This document shows positions 3,753-10,390 of a stretch of DNA of 64,000 bases, piece after piece. The notes under the pieces are model-generated. The model did no database searches, had not been told where the DNA came from, and saw only the letters and a program-made list of their open reading frames with translations. The number at the start of each line of letters is the position of its first letter. Position 1 is the first letter of the stretch. Origin of the DNA: Thermoguttaceae bacterium (lineage in GTDB: Bacteria > Planctomycetota > Planctomycetia > Pirellulales > Thermoguttaceae); NCBI GenBank assembly GCA_029975295.1, contig JARKPK010000189.1, positions 1 to 64,000 on the forward strand, in the 5' to 3' direction. The position numbers and the translations under genes are program-made.

Positions 3753-3862
3753 GCGATCGCAACGAAACACCATTTGTCCGAGAGTGAATTACCGCTTGTC
3801 CGAGAGTGAACTACCGCTGGCTCAATAGTCGATCACCACTTGTTCCGTAGTGAACTACCAGC
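3753..3862 (-). repeat. 22-bp tandem array overlapping the nikO stop codon
   Basis: Five degenerate 22-bp units (3753-3774, 3775-3796, 3797-3818, 3819-3840, 3841-3862). Units 3775-3796 and 3797-3818 differ at one base; the others are strongly diverged. Read on the minus strand, the rightmost unit contains the nikO stop codon (TAG, 3857-3855) at unit positions 6-8. The same positions read TGA, TAG, TAA and TGT in the next four units. A period of 22 puts the successive stops in frames 0, 1, 2 and 0. Confidence 0.8.
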
Positions 3863-4520
3863 CGCCTAACGCGGCAATCCGTCCCTGTTGCAGTTGCCAG
3901 CGGCGCTGGGTGACGGCGGCGAGAAACGCTCGGTCGTGGGCGGCGACGATCATCGTTTGCGGCAAGCGGTTGAGCAAGTCGGCAAGTCGGGCCACGGCGG
4001 CCTCGTCGAGTCCGGCGGCCGGCTCGTCGAGCAGCAGCACGTCGGGCCGCATGGCCAGCACTCCGGCCAAGGCCACCAGCCGTTTTTCGCCGCCCGAGAG
4101 CTTATGGGTCACACGTTCTTCGTAGCCCGAAAGGCCCAGTTCGGCCAGCGTTTCGGCGACGATGCGTTCCACTTCGTCGCGCGATTTGCCGAGGTTGAAT
4201 GGGCCGAACGCGACATCTTCGGCCACGGTGGGACAGAACAGTTGATCGTCGGCGTCTTGAAAGAGCAGTCCGGCGCGGCAGCGGACTTCGTAGAAGTCGG
4301 CCTCGCTGGTCCGATCGCGTCCGAAGGCCCAAATGCTTCCTTCTGTCGGCCGAAGCAGCCCAACGGTCAGCTTCAGCAGAGTGCTTTTTCCGCTGCCGTT
4401 GTCGCCGCACAGCGCGACGCGGTCGCCCCGGGCCAACGAGCAACTGCATCCGTCGAGCACTGGGCGTCGCGGATCGTAGGCGAAGCGGATATCGTTGAAT
4501 CGGAGCAATGCGTCGGTCAT
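3855..4520 (-). CDS. nikO: Nickel ECF transporter ATPase NikO
   Basis: 221-residue ABC ATPase that would energise nickel uptake on the cytoplasmic face of the NikMLQ membrane complex. Walker A GDNGSGKST at 39-47, Q-loop LLFQDADDQ with Q88, signature LSGGEKR 141-147, Walker B VLLLDE 161-166 and switch His195. The ECF-type signature and short length fit the CbiO/NikO branch. It is the last gene of nikKMLQO, 63 bp after nikQ. The final codons run into a 22-bp tandem repeat. Nickel rather than cobalt is inferred from the NikK/NikL partners and the NikR-like operator. Confidence 0.93.
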   Translation of the reverse strand: MTDALLRFNDIRFAYDPRRPVLDGCSCSLARGDRVALCGDNGSGKSTLLKLTVGLLRPTEGSIWAFGRDRTSEADFYEVRCRAGLLFQDADDQLFCPTVAEDVAFGPFNLGKSRDEVERIVAETLAELGLSGYEERVTHKLSGGEKRLVALAGVLAMRPDVLLLDEPAAGLDEAAVARLADLLNRLPQTMIVAAHDRAFLAAVTQRRWQLQQGRIAALGGW

Positions 4521-4583: not shown

Positions 4584-5357
4584 TCAAAGCGCCTGCAATT
4601 CGAGGGCGATCATCAGGCCCAGGCAGATGGCCATTCCGAGGGCCAGGGGGATGTCTCGCCGGGAAAGGGTGAAGTGGTCGAGCAAGTAGAATCGTCCGCG
4701 GAAGCCGCGGCATTTCATGGCGTCTTCAATGCGTTCCGATCGTTCCAGCGCGCGAATCAGCATCATGCCGGCCAAGTATCCGAGGCTGCGGTAGGTGTGG
4801 CGATTCGGTCGGGCGCGGAAGCCGCGCACCTTCATGGCCGCACGAAGTCGGCGATACTCGTCGGCAAGCACCTCGACATAGCGCACGGTGAAGAGGAACA
4901 GGTGCGAAAGTTTGGCCGGCACGCGCAAGTGATCGAGTCCGTGCCCGAGCGTGACCGGGGGCATCGACCCGATAAGGGCCATGACCGCCAGTACGATGGT
5001 GTTTCCCTTCATTGCCGTGGCCGCCCCGATTCGCAGACCGTCGAACGACAACGAGACTGGGCCGACCGCATTCCACCGCGGCGGATCGCCCGAAAGGGCA
5101 AGCACGAGCGTCATTGCAGCGAAGACGCCATTGAGTGCGGCCATCCTGCGAATGGCCGTTGCCGCAGCGATGTTGCTTAGCAACAAGCATGCGATTGCCG
5201 CCAGCAGCCCGACGGCCAGCGACTCCCAACGGCTGGCCCAAACCGCGGCCGCGGACAGCCCGATCGCCGTGATGATCCGCACGCGCGGATCGACGCCGTC
5301 GAGCGGGCTGTCGAAGATTTTGGGGGCGGTCGGGGCGGCGCCGACGGGGCGGTTCAT
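4584..5357 (-). CDS. nikQ: Nickel ECF transporter transmembrane protein NikQ
   Basis: 257 residues, CbiQ/NikQ family: the scaffold T-component that couples the ATPase NikO to the substrate-binding NikM. It shows hydrophobic segments near 30-65, 80-100, 115-140 and at the C terminus, and the coupling-helix region with paired short motifs AAMKVRGFRARP and DAMKCRGFRGRF, characteristic of CbiQ. The ATG at 5357 overlaps the nikL stop by four bases (ATGA), supporting translational coupling. Longer upstream open sequence in this frame is a shadow of nikL. Confidence 0.93.
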   Translation of the reverse strand: MNRPVGAAPTAPKIFDSPLDGVDPRVRIITAIGLSAAAVWASRWESLAVGLLAAIACLLLSNIAAATAIRRMAALNGVFAAMTLVLALSGDPPRWNAVGPVSLSFDGLRIGAATAMKGNTIVLAVMALIGSMPPVTLGHGLDHLRVPAKLSHLFLFTVRYVEVLADEYRRLRAAMKVRGFRARPNRHTYRSLGYLAGMMLIRALERSERIEDAMKCRGFRGRFYLLDHFTLSRRDIPLALGMAICLGLMIALELQAL

Positions 5358-6160
5358 CGGGCAGACCCTTGAGACGGTCGTCGGGCCATCAAATAGAAGG
5401 CAATTCCCGCGGCGCCGAGGATGTACCCGACGCCGCCGAGCAGGTCGCGCCAGCGAACGGCCGTTTCCATCCGTTCCAGCCGCTCGCGGATGTCGTCGAG
5501 TTGGGCGGCGATTGAGGCCGCCGACTGATCGCGGCCGAGCGGTTGCCCGGGCGCACCGGCGGCCCGCGGCGAACTGTCTGACGGCAGCGCACGCGATGGA
5601 TTTGGTTCCGGCGGCGAGTCGCTCTTGACCGCTGATGGCGGATCGACGGCTGCGGCGGGCTCGCCCTCGACTGAAGGCTTGGCCGGCGCAGCGGGCTGCG
5701 GCGGGGCGGGCGAAGCGGCCGGCCCCGGCAAGTCGGGCGGAAGCTGCGCTCGGCGGACCAGGGCGGGCCGTCGCGTCGCGTGGCCGTCGTCTAGCTCGGC
5801 CGAAAGCAAATGATCGCAGCCCGTCTTGGCAACAAAGACGAACTGGCCGTCGGCGTCGGTCGTCGTTTCGCCCAGCGAGTTGCCTAGAGGATCGGTTGCG
5901 CGCACCGCAACGCCTTGTGCCGCCGCCCCGCCTTTGAAGTAAACGCGGCCGTGGATGGCGGCGCCCTCGACGCGTTGCACAAAGATGTTCATTTCGTGCG
6001 CGGCGGCGATGGACGCAAACACGGCCATGATTAGCGCGGCCGCGAGGGCCGCTGCGCAACGACTGGCCGAGGGCAGGCCAACCAGCCTCGTGCGACTGCC
6101 GCCGAGGGGCGCGCGGCCGGTCGGGGAAAACAATTTCTCGATGACGGCGAGATCAGCCAT
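5354..6160 (-). CDS. nikL: Nickel transporter accessory protein NikL
   Basis: 268 residues. An N-terminal membrane segment (about 35-53) is followed by a carboxypeptidase-regulatory-like beta domain (HGRVYFKGGAAAQGVAVRAT, TTTDADGQFVF), a long Pro/Ala-rich linker (about 130-215), a short coiled coil and a C-terminal membrane helix (about 243-260) ending in RRPSQGSAR. This architecture matches NikL of NikKMLQO systems, which replaces the small NikN/CbiN subunit. Its start overlaps the nikM stop by eight bases. The extracytoplasmic domain may deliver or gate metal; this is inference. Confidence 0.85.
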   Translation of the reverse strand: MADLAVIEKLFSPTGRAPLGGSRTRLVGLPSASRCAAALAAALIMAVFASIAAAHEMNIFVQRVEGAAIHGRVYFKGGAAAQGVAVRATDPLGNSLGETTTDADGQFVFVAKTGCDHLLSAELDDGHATRRPALVRRAQLPPDLPGPAASPAPPQPAAPAKPSVEGEPAAAVDPPSAVKSDSPPEPNPSRALPSDSSPRAAGAPGQPLGRDQSAASIAAQLDDIRERLERMETAVRWRDLLGGVGYILGAAGIAFYLMARRPSQGSAR

Positions 6161-6803
6161 CGCTCAGCTCCGTGCAACTGGCGGGCCGAAGTGCCCCGAG
6201 AAGATCGGGCCGAACCTGTCGCACCAGCGCCATCACCGAGGCCGTAACCAATCCTTCGGCTATGGCCAGCGGCAGATGGGCCGCGGCCATCGCCGCCCCG
6301 AACCAAGCGAACTGCTTGCCGGCCAAGAAGAGGCATAGGCCGTTGCCCAACCCCGCCAATGCGACTGCGGCAGCCCCGGCGAAGAACCCCCAAACGGGCA
6401 CAGCCGAGCGCGGCGCGCGGCCGAGCGGACCGCGGAAGATCATGCCGCACGCCACGGCCGGGGCGGCCATGATTAGGGTGTTCACCCCCAAGACGATCGG
6501 GCCGCCTAAACCGAAAAGCGCAGCCTGAAGGACGAGCCCGGCCAGTACGGCCGGAAAGGCGGCCCAGCCGAGGATCACGCCCATCAGCCCGGTGAGGGTC
6601 AGGTGTTCGGCCGTAACGCCCAAGGGAAGATGGATCGATGAAACGACGAAAAAAGCGGCCGAAAGAACGGCCACTCGGGGAATCTGCTCGGCGTCGATGC
6701 GGCGCAGCCCGAGGGCCGTTCCCACGGCGGTTGCGCCCCAGCCAACGGCCAGGATTTCTCGCCCGTAGGGCGCCGCGGACAGAACGCCTTCATAGATGTG
6801 CAT
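6153..6803 (-). CDS. nikM: Nickel ECF transporter substrate-binding subunit NikM
   Basis: 216 residues, CbiM/NikM family integral membrane S-component that captures the metal ion. The ATG at 6803 was chosen because it gives MHIYEG. The family starts MHI(P/M)(D/E)G, and the free N terminus and His2 are known metal ligands; a longer upstream extension would bury them. Further family motif: VSSIHLPLGVTAEHLTLTG with conserved histidines. Six to seven hydrophobic segments. Lies between nikK and nikL and overlaps nikL by eight bases. Confidence 0.93.
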   Translation of the reverse strand: MHIYEGVLSAAPYGREILAVGWGATAVGTALGLRRIDAEQIPRVAVLSAAFFVVSSIHLPLGVTAEHLTLTGLMGVILGWAAFPAVLAGLVLQAALFGLGGPIVLGVNTLIMAAPAVACGMIFRGPLGRAPRSAVPVWGFFAGAAAVALAGLGNGLCLFLAGKQFAWFGAAMAAAHLPLAIAEGLVTASVMALVRQVRPDLLGALRPASCTELSDG

Positions 6804-6996
6804 CGTTTGATGACGCTTTCCGATCGTGCGGCCCCGGGCCGCATTCGGCTCATAACAGCCGGAGAATCGTCGCACAGTCCGTCGATCTGCCAATCAATCT
6901 GCCAAGCCGCGGATCGCTGCGAGCGATCGTGCGGCGGTCGCCCGGCGATCTCGCGCAAGTCTTATGCCGCGGCGCGGGGTCGCGGCCCGAATCTCT

Positions 6997-7794
6997 TTAG
7001 GGTTGGGCAGCGGTCATATCCACGGTTCTGACCCAAATCAGGCCGCCCAATTCGACCGCCGCCGGTTGACCTTGCGGATCGGGCAACGGCTTTTCGCCAT
7101 CGACCAGCGCGGCGAATCCCCACCAGCCCGCCCGCGGCATCGTGTAGGAAAAAACCCCGTTGGCGTCGGCCTTGATCACTTGCGTGCTGAACGCGTCGTT
7201 GGGCAAGGCGACTTTCTTGCCCGCGTTGTAGTATTCCACTTCGACCGTGGCGAAGGGCACCGGTTTGCCGTTGTGGCGGACGATGCCGCGAAACGTGTTG
7301 CCGGTCCACAGGCCGTAGGGGCGAACCAGCGGCTCGATCTCCACCGGCAGGCCGACCAATGCGTCCCAGCCTTCTTCCGCGCCGAATGCGCTGACTACGA
7401 CTTTGGTGTAATGGATGATGTATTTCTTCTCGGCCGATTCCCAGTAAGGAGCGGGTTCGATGTAGAAGACGTGGTCGCCCGGGGCGTCGAGCTTCAGCTC
7501 GGCTGTGTAGGCGGTCTTCCCTTCGCGCTTCACTTCGCGAAGGATGTCTTTCAAGTCGCGGTGTTTCCCGTCAACCAGCACGCCGAAACGCCGCGGCTGC
7601 CCCATCTCCATCACCGGACCGTCGGTCATCGGGTGGGTGAATCGCAGGTCGATGGCGATGGCGGCCTCGTCGGCGTCGGCTGCCACGTCGCGCGACGGAA
7701 TTGCCACCTGAAAATGTGCGAACAGGCTGGTAGCGGTGGCGAAGGCCGCCAGAGAGAACGCGCCGAACAGGCGCCAAGAGAAACGACGGTTCAT
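6997..7794 (-). CDS. nikK: Periplasmic nickel-system protein NikK (DUF4198)
   Basis: 265 residues with a signal peptide ([26 protein letters not shown]), then DUF4198: His27 directly after the predicted cleavage site (AHFQVAIP), [24 protein letters not shown] and a carboxypeptidase-like beta domain near the C terminus ([16 protein letters not shown]). DUF4198 proteins are the K component of NikKMLQO nickel importers and probably bind metal in the periplasm. First gene of the operon. The leader is about 180 nt from a predicted promoter with a NikR-like operator. Confidence 0.88.
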
Positions 7795-7962: not shown

Positions 7963-7993
7963 CGGTATTACACCGTCGCTTATTGTAACACCG
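7963..7993 (-). promoter_or_regulatory. Predicted NikR operator
   Basis: On the minus strand the sequence reads CGGTGTTAC, 13 bases, then GTAATACCG: an inverted repeat with 9-base arms and one mismatch. The known NikR site of deltaproteobacteria such as Geobacter is GTGTTAC-N13/14-GTAACAC; this site differs at one base. It covers the predicted -10 box and start site of nikKMLQO, as expected for nickel-dependent repression. No nikR gene is in the window. Confidence 0.8.
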
Positions 7994-8010
7994 CGGGGAA
8001 GGGGTGTCGA
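7982..8010 (-). promoter_or_regulatory. Promoter of nikKMLQO
   Basis: Minus strand: -35 TCGACA (8010-8005), 17-base spacer, -10 TACAAT (7987-7982), each matching the sigma-70 consensus at five of six positions. Predicted start near 7975, giving a leader of about 180 nt before nikK. The NikR-like palindrome overlaps the -10. Confidence 0.65.
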
Positions 8011-8261: not shown

Positions 8262-10214
8262 TTACGGGGCGGCCGCGTCGTCCTCGTCAACCGTCATTCC
8301 CAAGTGCCGCATCTTGCGATAGAGGTTCGAGCGGTGCAGGCCCAACTGGGCGGCGGCCTGACTCATGTTGCCCCCGCACTTTTCAATCGTGCGGCGGATA
8401 TACTCGCACTGGAAGCCGGCGGTGGCGTTGGCCAGAGTTTGCCCGAACTCGGTCGTGAGCGGTTCGGTTCCTCGAGGTGAAAGGATGAAGGCCAGGTCGG
8501 CCGCGTCGATGCGGTCGTCGGTGCTTAGGTAGGCCAACCGCTCCATCAGATTGCGCAATTCGCGGACGTTGCCCGGCCAGGGATGCTCGGCCAGCCGTTT
8601 TCGGGCGGCGGGAGTCAATTCGGGGGCGGGCCGCCGCGCACGGCGGCAGAAGTCATTGAGGAAGTGTTCAGCCAACAGAAGCACATCGCCGGGCCGTTCG
8701 CGCAACGGCGGCAGTTCGAGCGTCACGACGTTCAGACGGAAGTAAAGGTCTTCGCGGAACCGCTTCTTGCGGACCATCTCAGCCAAGTTCTGATTGGTAG
8801 CGGCGACCACCCGGGCGTCGGTGGCGATTGGGCGCGAACCGCCGACGCGCACGAACAGATGTTCTTCGAGCACGCGGAGCAACTTCGCTTGGCCGGCCAG
8901 GCTCAACTCGCCAATTTCGTCGAGAAAGAGCGTCCCGCCGTCGGCCAACTCGAACTTGCCGGGTCGGGTCTCGTGGGCGTCGGTGAACGCGCCCTTCTCG
9001 TGGCCGAACAATTCGCTTTCGGCCAGGCTTTCGGGAATGGCTGCGCAGTTGACGGCGATGAACGGCTGGTCGCGCCGGCGGCTGAGGTAGTGGATCGATT
9101 GGGCGACGATCTCCTTGCCGGTGCCGTTTTCGCCGAGGATGAGCACGGCCAAATCGGTGTCGGCCACGCGGCGCGTGATCGAACGGAGGGCTTCGATGGC
9201 CGGGCTCTTGCCGATCAATTGCACGCCGGCGGCCGCCGACTCGACGATTTGCCGCCGACTGGAAAGCAGTTGTTGGCGATCTTGGGCGTTTTCCAACGCG
9301 ACGGCCGCATGAGAGGCCAGTTCGATCAAGGCAGCCTCGTCGTCGGCGGTGAAGCGGCCCGATTGCTTGTTGATCACCTCGAACACGCCGAACAGATCGC
9401 CGGCCCGTCCCCGCAACGGAACGCACAGCAAAGAGCGTGTGCGGTAGTTCAAGCGGCGATCGACTTGGCGGTCGATTTCCGCCTCGGCTTCGGCCGAGTC
9501 CACCCGCCGCGGTTGGCCGGTGCGCAGCACTTGCCCAACCACGCCGCGATCATCGGCCACGCGCAACTCGCCGTCGGGCACGCCCAGGGCCGGCCGGGCC
9601 ACCAATTCGCCTCGCGGTTTGTCCCAAAGGAAGATGCTGGCGCGGTCGGCTTCGAGCAGTCGGGCGGCGGCCTCGGCCATCTGACGCAGAAGCGGCTCGG
9701 GCTCGTGCGTCTTGTTCCATTGATGCGTGATCGAAAGAATCGCTTCGAGCCGCGCTGCGCGACGCTGAGCGGCCTGACGCGCCCTCACCGCCGACAATCC
9801 CGAACCGACCGCAGCGGCCAGCGCAGCGGCCTCGGCCGGCCAGCGCGCTTCGGGCGATGTCGCCGCGGCGCAGAGCAGCTCGGGCTCGTCGCTCTCGCGG
9901 GTCTTCAACGGGGCTGCCCACCATTCCTTCTCTTGACTCGGCGAATCTCGCTCGCTGACATGGGCCAACAGGGCGGCGGGCAACGCTGCCTTGTTGCTCG
10001 TTTCGGCCAACGCCCGCCACCGACCCTCGCGCCCGGAAACGACGGCCAAGTATTCGATCCCCAACGGAGCAAGCCGTTTGACCAGCTCGGTCAATGCCTG
10101 GCGAAGGTAGTCGGCCCCGTCGCGGCATTCGACGGCGGCCTGAAGCGCGGCCGTCAACGCGCCGGTCCAGGCGGTTTCCGCATCTGCCGCCCCGCGCGGG
10201 GTGTGACGTTCCAT
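8262..10214 (-). CDS. GAF / AAA+ / Fis-type enhancer-binding transcription regulator
   Basis: 650 residues, NtrC-like. A weak sensor region (about 20-150), a GAF domain (about 166-311), an AAA+ domain with Walker A GENGTGKE (361-368), Walker B FLDEIGE near 430, and a C-terminal Fis helix-turn-helix (NMSQAAAQLGLHRSNLYRKM). The sigma-54 contact loop, normally GAFTGA, reads GAFTDA (408-413). The ATG at 10214 has GGAG upstream; a TTG at 10286 is also possible. Divergent from etfB. What it senses and whether it controls the etf genes is unknown; no clear sigma-54 promoter was seen in the shared spacer. Confidence 0.88.
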   Translation of the reverse strand: MERHTPRGAADAETAWTGALTAALQAAVECRDGADYLRQALTELVKRLAPLGIEYLAVVSGREGRWRALAETSNKAALPAALLAHVSERDSPSQEKEWWAAPLKTRESDEPELLCAAATSPEARWPAEAAALAAAVGSGLSAVRARQAAQRRAARLEAILSITHQWNKTHEPEPLLRQMAEAAARLLEADRASIFLWDKPRGELVARPALGVPDGELRVADDRGVVGQVLRTGQPRRVDSAEAEAEIDRQVDRRLNYRTRSLLCVPLRGRAGDLFGVFEVINKQSGRFTADDEAALIELASHAAVALENAQDRQQLLSSRRQIVESAAAGVQLIGKSPAIEALRSITRRVADTDLAVLILGENGTGKEIVAQSIHYLSRRRDQPFIAVNCAAIPESLAESELFGHEKGAFTDAHETRPGKFELADGGTLFLDEIGELSLAGQAKLLRVLEEHLFVRVGGSRPIATDARVVAATNQNLAEMVRKKRFREDLYFRLNVVTLELPPLRERPGDVLLLAEHFLNDFCRRARRPAPELTPAARKRLAEHPWPGNVRELRNLMERLAYLSTDDRIDAADLAFILSPRGTEPLTTEFGQTLANATAGFQCEYIRRTIEKCGGNMSQAAAQLGLHRSNLYRKMRHLGMTVDEDDAAAP

Positions 10215-10390
10215 AACTGTTCGAAGCTCCGAGTAAGACGGCCGAAGCTGCGTCGGCGGTGTTGTCCAACTGACTGCGCAGTCCAAATCATCCTATCGAA
10301 TTTCTGCGGCGAATCCAAGAGTCGGTGCGAATGTGATTTCCTTTGGTGTTGTCGCATTGACGACATTTGGGGTTTTCGGAGCTTTGTGCC

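Follow-up and report, generated by a model that had tools for sequence, protein, structure and literature searches.

A Predicted NikR Operator over the nikKMLQO Promoter of a Thermoguttaceae Planctomycete and Its Conservation in the Family

The nikKMLQO operon of a Thermoguttaceae bacterium was found to be preceded by an inverted repeat that overlaps the operon promoter, and comparison between genomes makes it very probable that this palindrome is the operator of the host NikR protein. From these comparisons we infer that NikR binds the site, that it represses and that nickel is the metal transported; the operon is likely to be both repressed by nickel and specific for it.

Operator, Promoter and Operon in the Window

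The window, i.e., the whole stretch of 64,000 nucleotides analyzed, contains the following features:

7965..7991, minus strand: predicted NikR operator GTGTTAC-N13-GTAATAC (sequence, family conservation, shuffles)
7982..8010, minus strand: promoter TCGACA-17-TACAAT, with the -10 box within the first operator arm (promoter scan, family alignment)
6997..7794, minus strand: nikK, DUF4198, NikK-type component
6153..6893, minus strand: nikM, CbiM/NikM substrate-specific component
5354..6160, minus strand: nikL (NCBIfam NF058648, NikL family, over cut-off)
4584..5357, minus strand: nikQ, CbiQ, T component
3855..4520, minus strand: nikO, ECF ATPase (ABC ATPase, CbiO-like)

The plus strand at 7965-7991 reads GTATTACACCGTCGCTTATTGTAACAC, and the minus strand GTGTTACAATAAGCGACGGTGTAATAC, which is GTGTTAC-N13-GTAATAC. 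A preliminary description of this DNA had reported this repeat over a -10 box TACAAT, with a -35 box at a spacing of 17 and a full nikKMLQO operon downstream. The arrangement was confirmed on the minus strand, where K, M, L, Q and O were found together. No NikN/CbiN gene was found among the window open reading frames of at least 80 aa. The promoter is sigma-70-like with 10 of 12 matches to the consensus and a TG before the -10 box, and the promoter scan found one such promoter in the operator region compared to 0.1 per shuffle. Since the promoter runs from 8010 to 7982 on the minus strand, the first operator arm overlaps its -10 box. The operator stands approximately 170 nt ahead of the nikK start codon. 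A gene for a GAF and sigma-54 activator protein (8262-10286) is found on the same strand farther upstream, beyond the nik promoter, and no link to nickel was seen for it.

When the 467-bp intergenic region was shuffled 20,000 times with dinucleotides preserved, the pair GTRWYAC-N13-GTRWYAC never arose, and a chance origin of the window palindrome is excluded. The Rfam search around the nik operon found no cobalamin riboswitch and nothing else reaching the gathering score. Riboswitch control was rejected, the sole match being a CRISPR repeat far below that score.

GTRTTAC-N13-GTAAYAC has no other exact copy in the host genome (5.01 Mb in 190 contigs) than the window site. The further copies of the palindrome that the preliminary description had envisaged were not found in exact form; a GTRWYAC pair that was found before a PEP-CTERM gene is described below. 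When up to two mismatches were allowed the genome had 8 matches per strand, fewer than the 14 of a reversed control pattern, so that loose matches alone carry no meaning. Two sites with one mismatch, C157:50663 near an aldo/keto reductase gene and C115:2771, are probably due to chance, and so is a perfect divergent GTRWYAC-N13 pair (C157:44682-44708, locus L174) ahead of an open reading frame resembling 5-formyl-THF cyclo-ligase. We know of no conserved association for either of the C157 sites.

Urease and hydrogenase genes had been named as examples of possible companions of the palindrome. Urease was rejected as a host nickel user, its alpha subunit being absent from the genome, but a 531-aa open frame encodes the large subunit of a [NiFe]-hydrogenase, in which the motifs RICGVC and DPCFGC are present, and from this it appears that the host probably needs nickel.

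NCBIfam assigns the window M subunit to the cobalt transporter CbiM (equivalog match over cut-off), and in five proteobacteria NikK1ML1QO operons are linked with B12 genes according to the accessible text of PMC2667541. Import of mainly cobalt by the nik operon is nevertheless unlikely. The K and L components belong to the nickel-type set (PMC2667541, accessible text), and the operon carries a NikR-type operator in place of a B12 riboswitch. The same text lists three Planctomycetes without any Nik/Cbi transporter.

The Host NikR and Known NikR Codes

The preliminary description had made its reading depend on a nikR gene in the genome, and one was present, as a single NikR_C match (G000:C36:24608-24835, E 2e-28). 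The protein scored over the cut-offs of NCBIfam NF003381 and NF002815 and below that of TIGR02793. Its closest solved structures were the nickel regulators 2bj1 (E 1.5e-30), 2ca9 and 1q5v, which we take to be the NikR proteins of P. horikoshii, H. pylori and E. coli, respectively. The first strand reads VVRFSVSL in the host and IIRFSVSL in H. pylori NikR, so that RFSVSL is identical in the two, while the contact strand of E. coli NikR is RVTITL. This first strand presumably holds the base-contacting residues, as in the E. coli NikR-DNA structure. The nickel-ligand motif QHx10HxHx5C was found in all 52 distinct NikR sequences of the family, and the ligands are intact in the host protein. The host NikR (L001:1351-1914) also has a histidine-rich C-terminal tail with 11 His, the richest among these 52 sequences. 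The host nikR gene is located on a different contig from the nik operon. Autoregulation was rejected, because no site was found upstream of nikR (best 10/14).

The code GTGTTAC-N13/14-GTAACAC, which had been attributed to Geobacter-type bacteria, apparently came to the preliminary description from a binding study reportedly made with Geobacter NikR. It is documented in deltaproteobacteria, for which Rodionov and colleagues derived it in 2004 (PMC545781); in the accessible text of that paper the nikKMLQO operon of D. desulfuricans carries such a site and the site of D. psychrophila (Desulfotalea) has its arms reversed. Compared to this operator the window has the same arms, one base off a perfect palindrome, the same N13 and the same nikKMLQO genes. 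It differs in being from another phylum, and the half-site here is better described as GTRWYAC, in convergent, divergent or direct repeat. The reversed arms of Desulfotalea are shared by several family genomes.

The H. pylori NikR consensus, TRTTA and TAWTA 15 nt apart, was derived experimentally, is close to an earlier TRWYA dyad and has pentamer centres two helix turns apart (PMC5385501, accessible text). The window sequence TGTTA-N15-TAATA matches it fully, and to describe the code as deltaproteobacterial, as had been done, is therefore too restrictive. Conservation in planctomycete sites extends to the flanking G and C of both arms, and the H. pylori targets are other genes than those in planctomycetes. 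The E. coli operator, given as GTATGAT-N13/14-ATCATAC in the accessible part of PMC545781, has the same overall geometry but different arms, and an E. coli-type operator was rejected since the window has GTGTTAC and GTAATAC and not GTATGA arms. Because the window site fits both the deltaproteobacterial and the H. pylori consensus, the two codes were read as one, GTRWYAC-N13-GTRWYAC. This suggests that the "Geobacter" and "H. pylori" operators are one code and that the NikR proteins recognizing it carry an RFSxS contact strand.

Conservation of the Operator in the Family and Beyond

The family consisted of 119 genomes, probably Thermoguttaceae, of which 75 had NikR and 65 had CbiM/NikM. Exact GTRTTAC-N13/14-GTAAYAC sites occurred in 26 of the 119 and the reversed control pattern in 6, so that some of the exact sites are probably due to chance; such sites, for example those in G036, G051, G056, G098 and G106, were kept out of the site classes. 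CbiM loci from 61 of the 65 genomes, leaving out G071, G072, G074, G075 and the second matches in G030 and G039, gave 30 nik-type and 31 other CbiM operons. We made this split after the first site scan, by tblastn with the window Nik proteins where this had been run (9 of the 31 other operons covered) and otherwise by genus. It was clear-cut for most loci; of the borderline ones, G025, which has a site and weak Nik matches, was placed with the nik operons, and G117, with a NikM 36% identical and no site, with the others.

Two GTRWYAC half-sites were sought within 1.7 kb upstream and scored out of 14. At spacing 13, a score of 14/14 was found for 14 of the 30 nik operons, at least 13 for 22 and at least 12 for 24, the last spanning 18 genera, although all counts are drawn from related, phylogenetically non-independent genomes. 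At the 27 other spacings between 3 and 30 there were no perfect pairs and at most one of the 30 operons reached 13, and none of the 31 other CbiM operons reached 12/14 at spacing 13. Strict GTGTTAC/GTAAYAC arms proved too narrow, as several nik operons have reversed or direct arms that were found after widening to GTRWYAC. Since the half-site was widened after the data had been seen, the number of matches is a less fair test than the spacing control and the 31 other CbiM operons.

Six nik operons had no site (G009, G026, G028, G029, G030 and G031). Contig ends are close upstream in G009, G026 and G028, and G026 has an exact site beside a nikK start on another contig (L017). In G029 and G030, where NikR and nik genes are present and the upstream DNA is complete, there is no site, and G031 has a nik operon with neither NikR nor a site.

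Across genera the arms and spacing were kept while the sequence of the spacer varied. It is scarcely conceivable that the window repeat is a chance palindrome or a leader-RNA structure with no protein bound: loose copies in the host genome are no commoner than the control, as such a reading would have it, but this pattern of conservation, the shuffles and the Rfam result all speak against it.

The promoter was conserved together with the site. Among the 24 aligned nik sites, 19 have a TAnAAT that starts in the first arm and 15 have a -35 box with at least five of six TTGACA matches at exactly 17 bp, compared to none at ten other spacings. Operator and promoter therefore form one conserved unit. 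We propose that when nickel is sufficient, a nickel-loaded NikR tetramer would bind the two GTRWYAC half-sites, two helical turns apart, and cover the -10 box and start region, so that transcription of nikKMLQO would be blocked; when nickel is scarce NikR would leave the site and the ECF transporter would be made. NikR of H. pylori activates or represses depending on the target (PMC9860126, accessible text), and the host protein might likewise activate from this site or do both. This is very unlikely, as throughout the family the operator of nik promoters covers the -10 box and the start region, which is the classical place for a repressor to bind, and repressing uptake genes suits homeostasis.

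The presence of a site was found to follow that of NikR. Among the 40 genomes with a site of the nik class or of the B and C classes described below, 37 had NikR, compared to 38 of the 79 without (Fisher p 8e-7). The NikR strand was read for 52 of the 75 genomes that have NikR; 36 of the 42 with an RFSxS strand had a site, compared to none of the 10 with other strands (RISxS, RISIT, KITIS; p 5e-7). Since the genomes are related, both p-values overstate the evidence. Three genomes had sites and no detected NikR (G016, G043 and G084), which may reflect assembly gaps. In G015, G017 and G041 the site and nikM are directly preceded by nikR, the nikM start codon of G015 being uncertain since its alignment runs across the site, and in G023 nikR adjoins a site that is followed by a DUF1559 gene.

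Genomes with sites and no detected NikR, together with a host nikR that lies apart from the nik operon and lacks a site upstream, would be expected if another nickel or cobalt regulator, of the Fur/Nur family or of an unknown kind, read the palindrome with NikR as a bystander. We regard this as highly improbable, given that the window site matches two NikR consensuses (PMC545781 and PMC5385501, as far as their accessible texts go), that sites track the NikR contact strand and that nikR adjoins the site in several genomes.

The preliminary description had extended the code to the whole phylum. This is shown for the family of the window and a few other lineages and not for the phylum at large, where the strict pattern was matched in only three of 392 genomes, namely the host, G088 and G224. 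In G224, from another class of the phylum, the site lies shortly before a nikM-like gene. Among named genomes with a NikK alignment 80 loci were kept, one (L233) being dropped as it begins too close to a contig end, and assigned to groups by record title. A score of at least 13/14 at spacing 13 was reached by 9 of 17 planctomycete-type loci (L226 counted; 10 of the 17 are apparently among the family genomes), 2 of 2 Hydrogenedentota loci, 6 of 11 deltaproteobacterial loci (4 perfect) and 5 of 19 gammaproteobacterial loci (none perfect). It was reached by none of the 26 alphaproteobacterial loci, the two from Lentisphaeria or the two from other groups. One planctomycete locus (L265) and one from Lentisphaeria (L238) reached it at spacing 14 only, and some gammaproteobacterial nikK loci, e.g., L262, have E. 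coli-type GTATGA arms instead. The record of L226 is titled Candidatus Nealsonbacteria and its nik operon is like that of the planctomycete family; the title looks mislabelled.

A Wider Candidate Regulon

Sites were also found before two further classes of genes, and these targets are a less expected part of the result than the operator itself. Class B encodes a protein resembling tetrapyrrole methylases (PF00590, up to E 2e-46), predicted to be exported because a hydrophobic stretch at the N terminus was recognized on visual inspection. It was present in 14 of the 119 family genomes and absent from the host genome. In several genomes a DUF1559 pseudopilin-like gene precedes it and a DUF4198 gene follows (L077, L068). 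At spacing 13 the pair scored 14/14 in 9 of the 14 genomes and at least 13 in 12, the misses being G004 and G006; at other spacings there were no perfect pairs and at most 2 of 14 reached 13. The proteins at L077:3204-4097, L081:4909-5889 and L087:497-1459, all behind NikR-type operators, have apparent signal peptides, and export is odd for a member of this family of SAM-dependent enzymes.

Class C encodes a PEP-CTERM protein, with dockerin-like repeats in some genomes, and is often followed by a DUF1559 gene. Twenty genomes had a match and 18 of these covered the conserved part, G012 and G019 matching in the repeat part only and being left uncounted. At spacing 13, 8 of the 18 had a perfect pair and 15 scored at least 13; the misses include G010, which scored 11, and G028, which has only 53 bp upstream. 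Other spacings gave a single perfect pair, at spacing 6, where 4 of 18 reached 13. The host class C gene (L177:4375-6288, minus strand) has a DUF1559 gene behind it, and the sequence GTATTACGTTCTCACCATACGTATTAC, with a perfect half-site pair, ends 63 bp before its start codon (G000:C146:37351-37377, in L177). The frame itself looks like two PEP-CTERM proteins fused, with a second VPEP segment near the C terminus.

In the sources available to us we found no report of a NikR regulon in Planctomycetes, of NikR together with PEP-CTERM proteins or of DUF1559 together with nickel, and others may exist. Tentatively, and with more doubt than belief, we suggest that NikR could control a nickel-scavenging program at the cell surface besides the ECF transporter in Thermoguttaceae-like planctomycetes, one part being the class B protein with its DUF1559 pseudopilin and NikK-like DUF4198 companions and the other the class C surface protein with DUF1559. 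Outside the inner membrane, these proteins may pick up nickel, as such or in a tetrapyrrole-like chelate, and pass it on to NikKMLQO.

Altogether, comparison between genomes supports the existence of a NikR regulon in this family of planctomycetes. The operator serves as a sequence handle that ties exported tetrapyrrole-methylase-like, DUF1559 and PEP-CTERM proteins of unknown role to nickel homeostasis.
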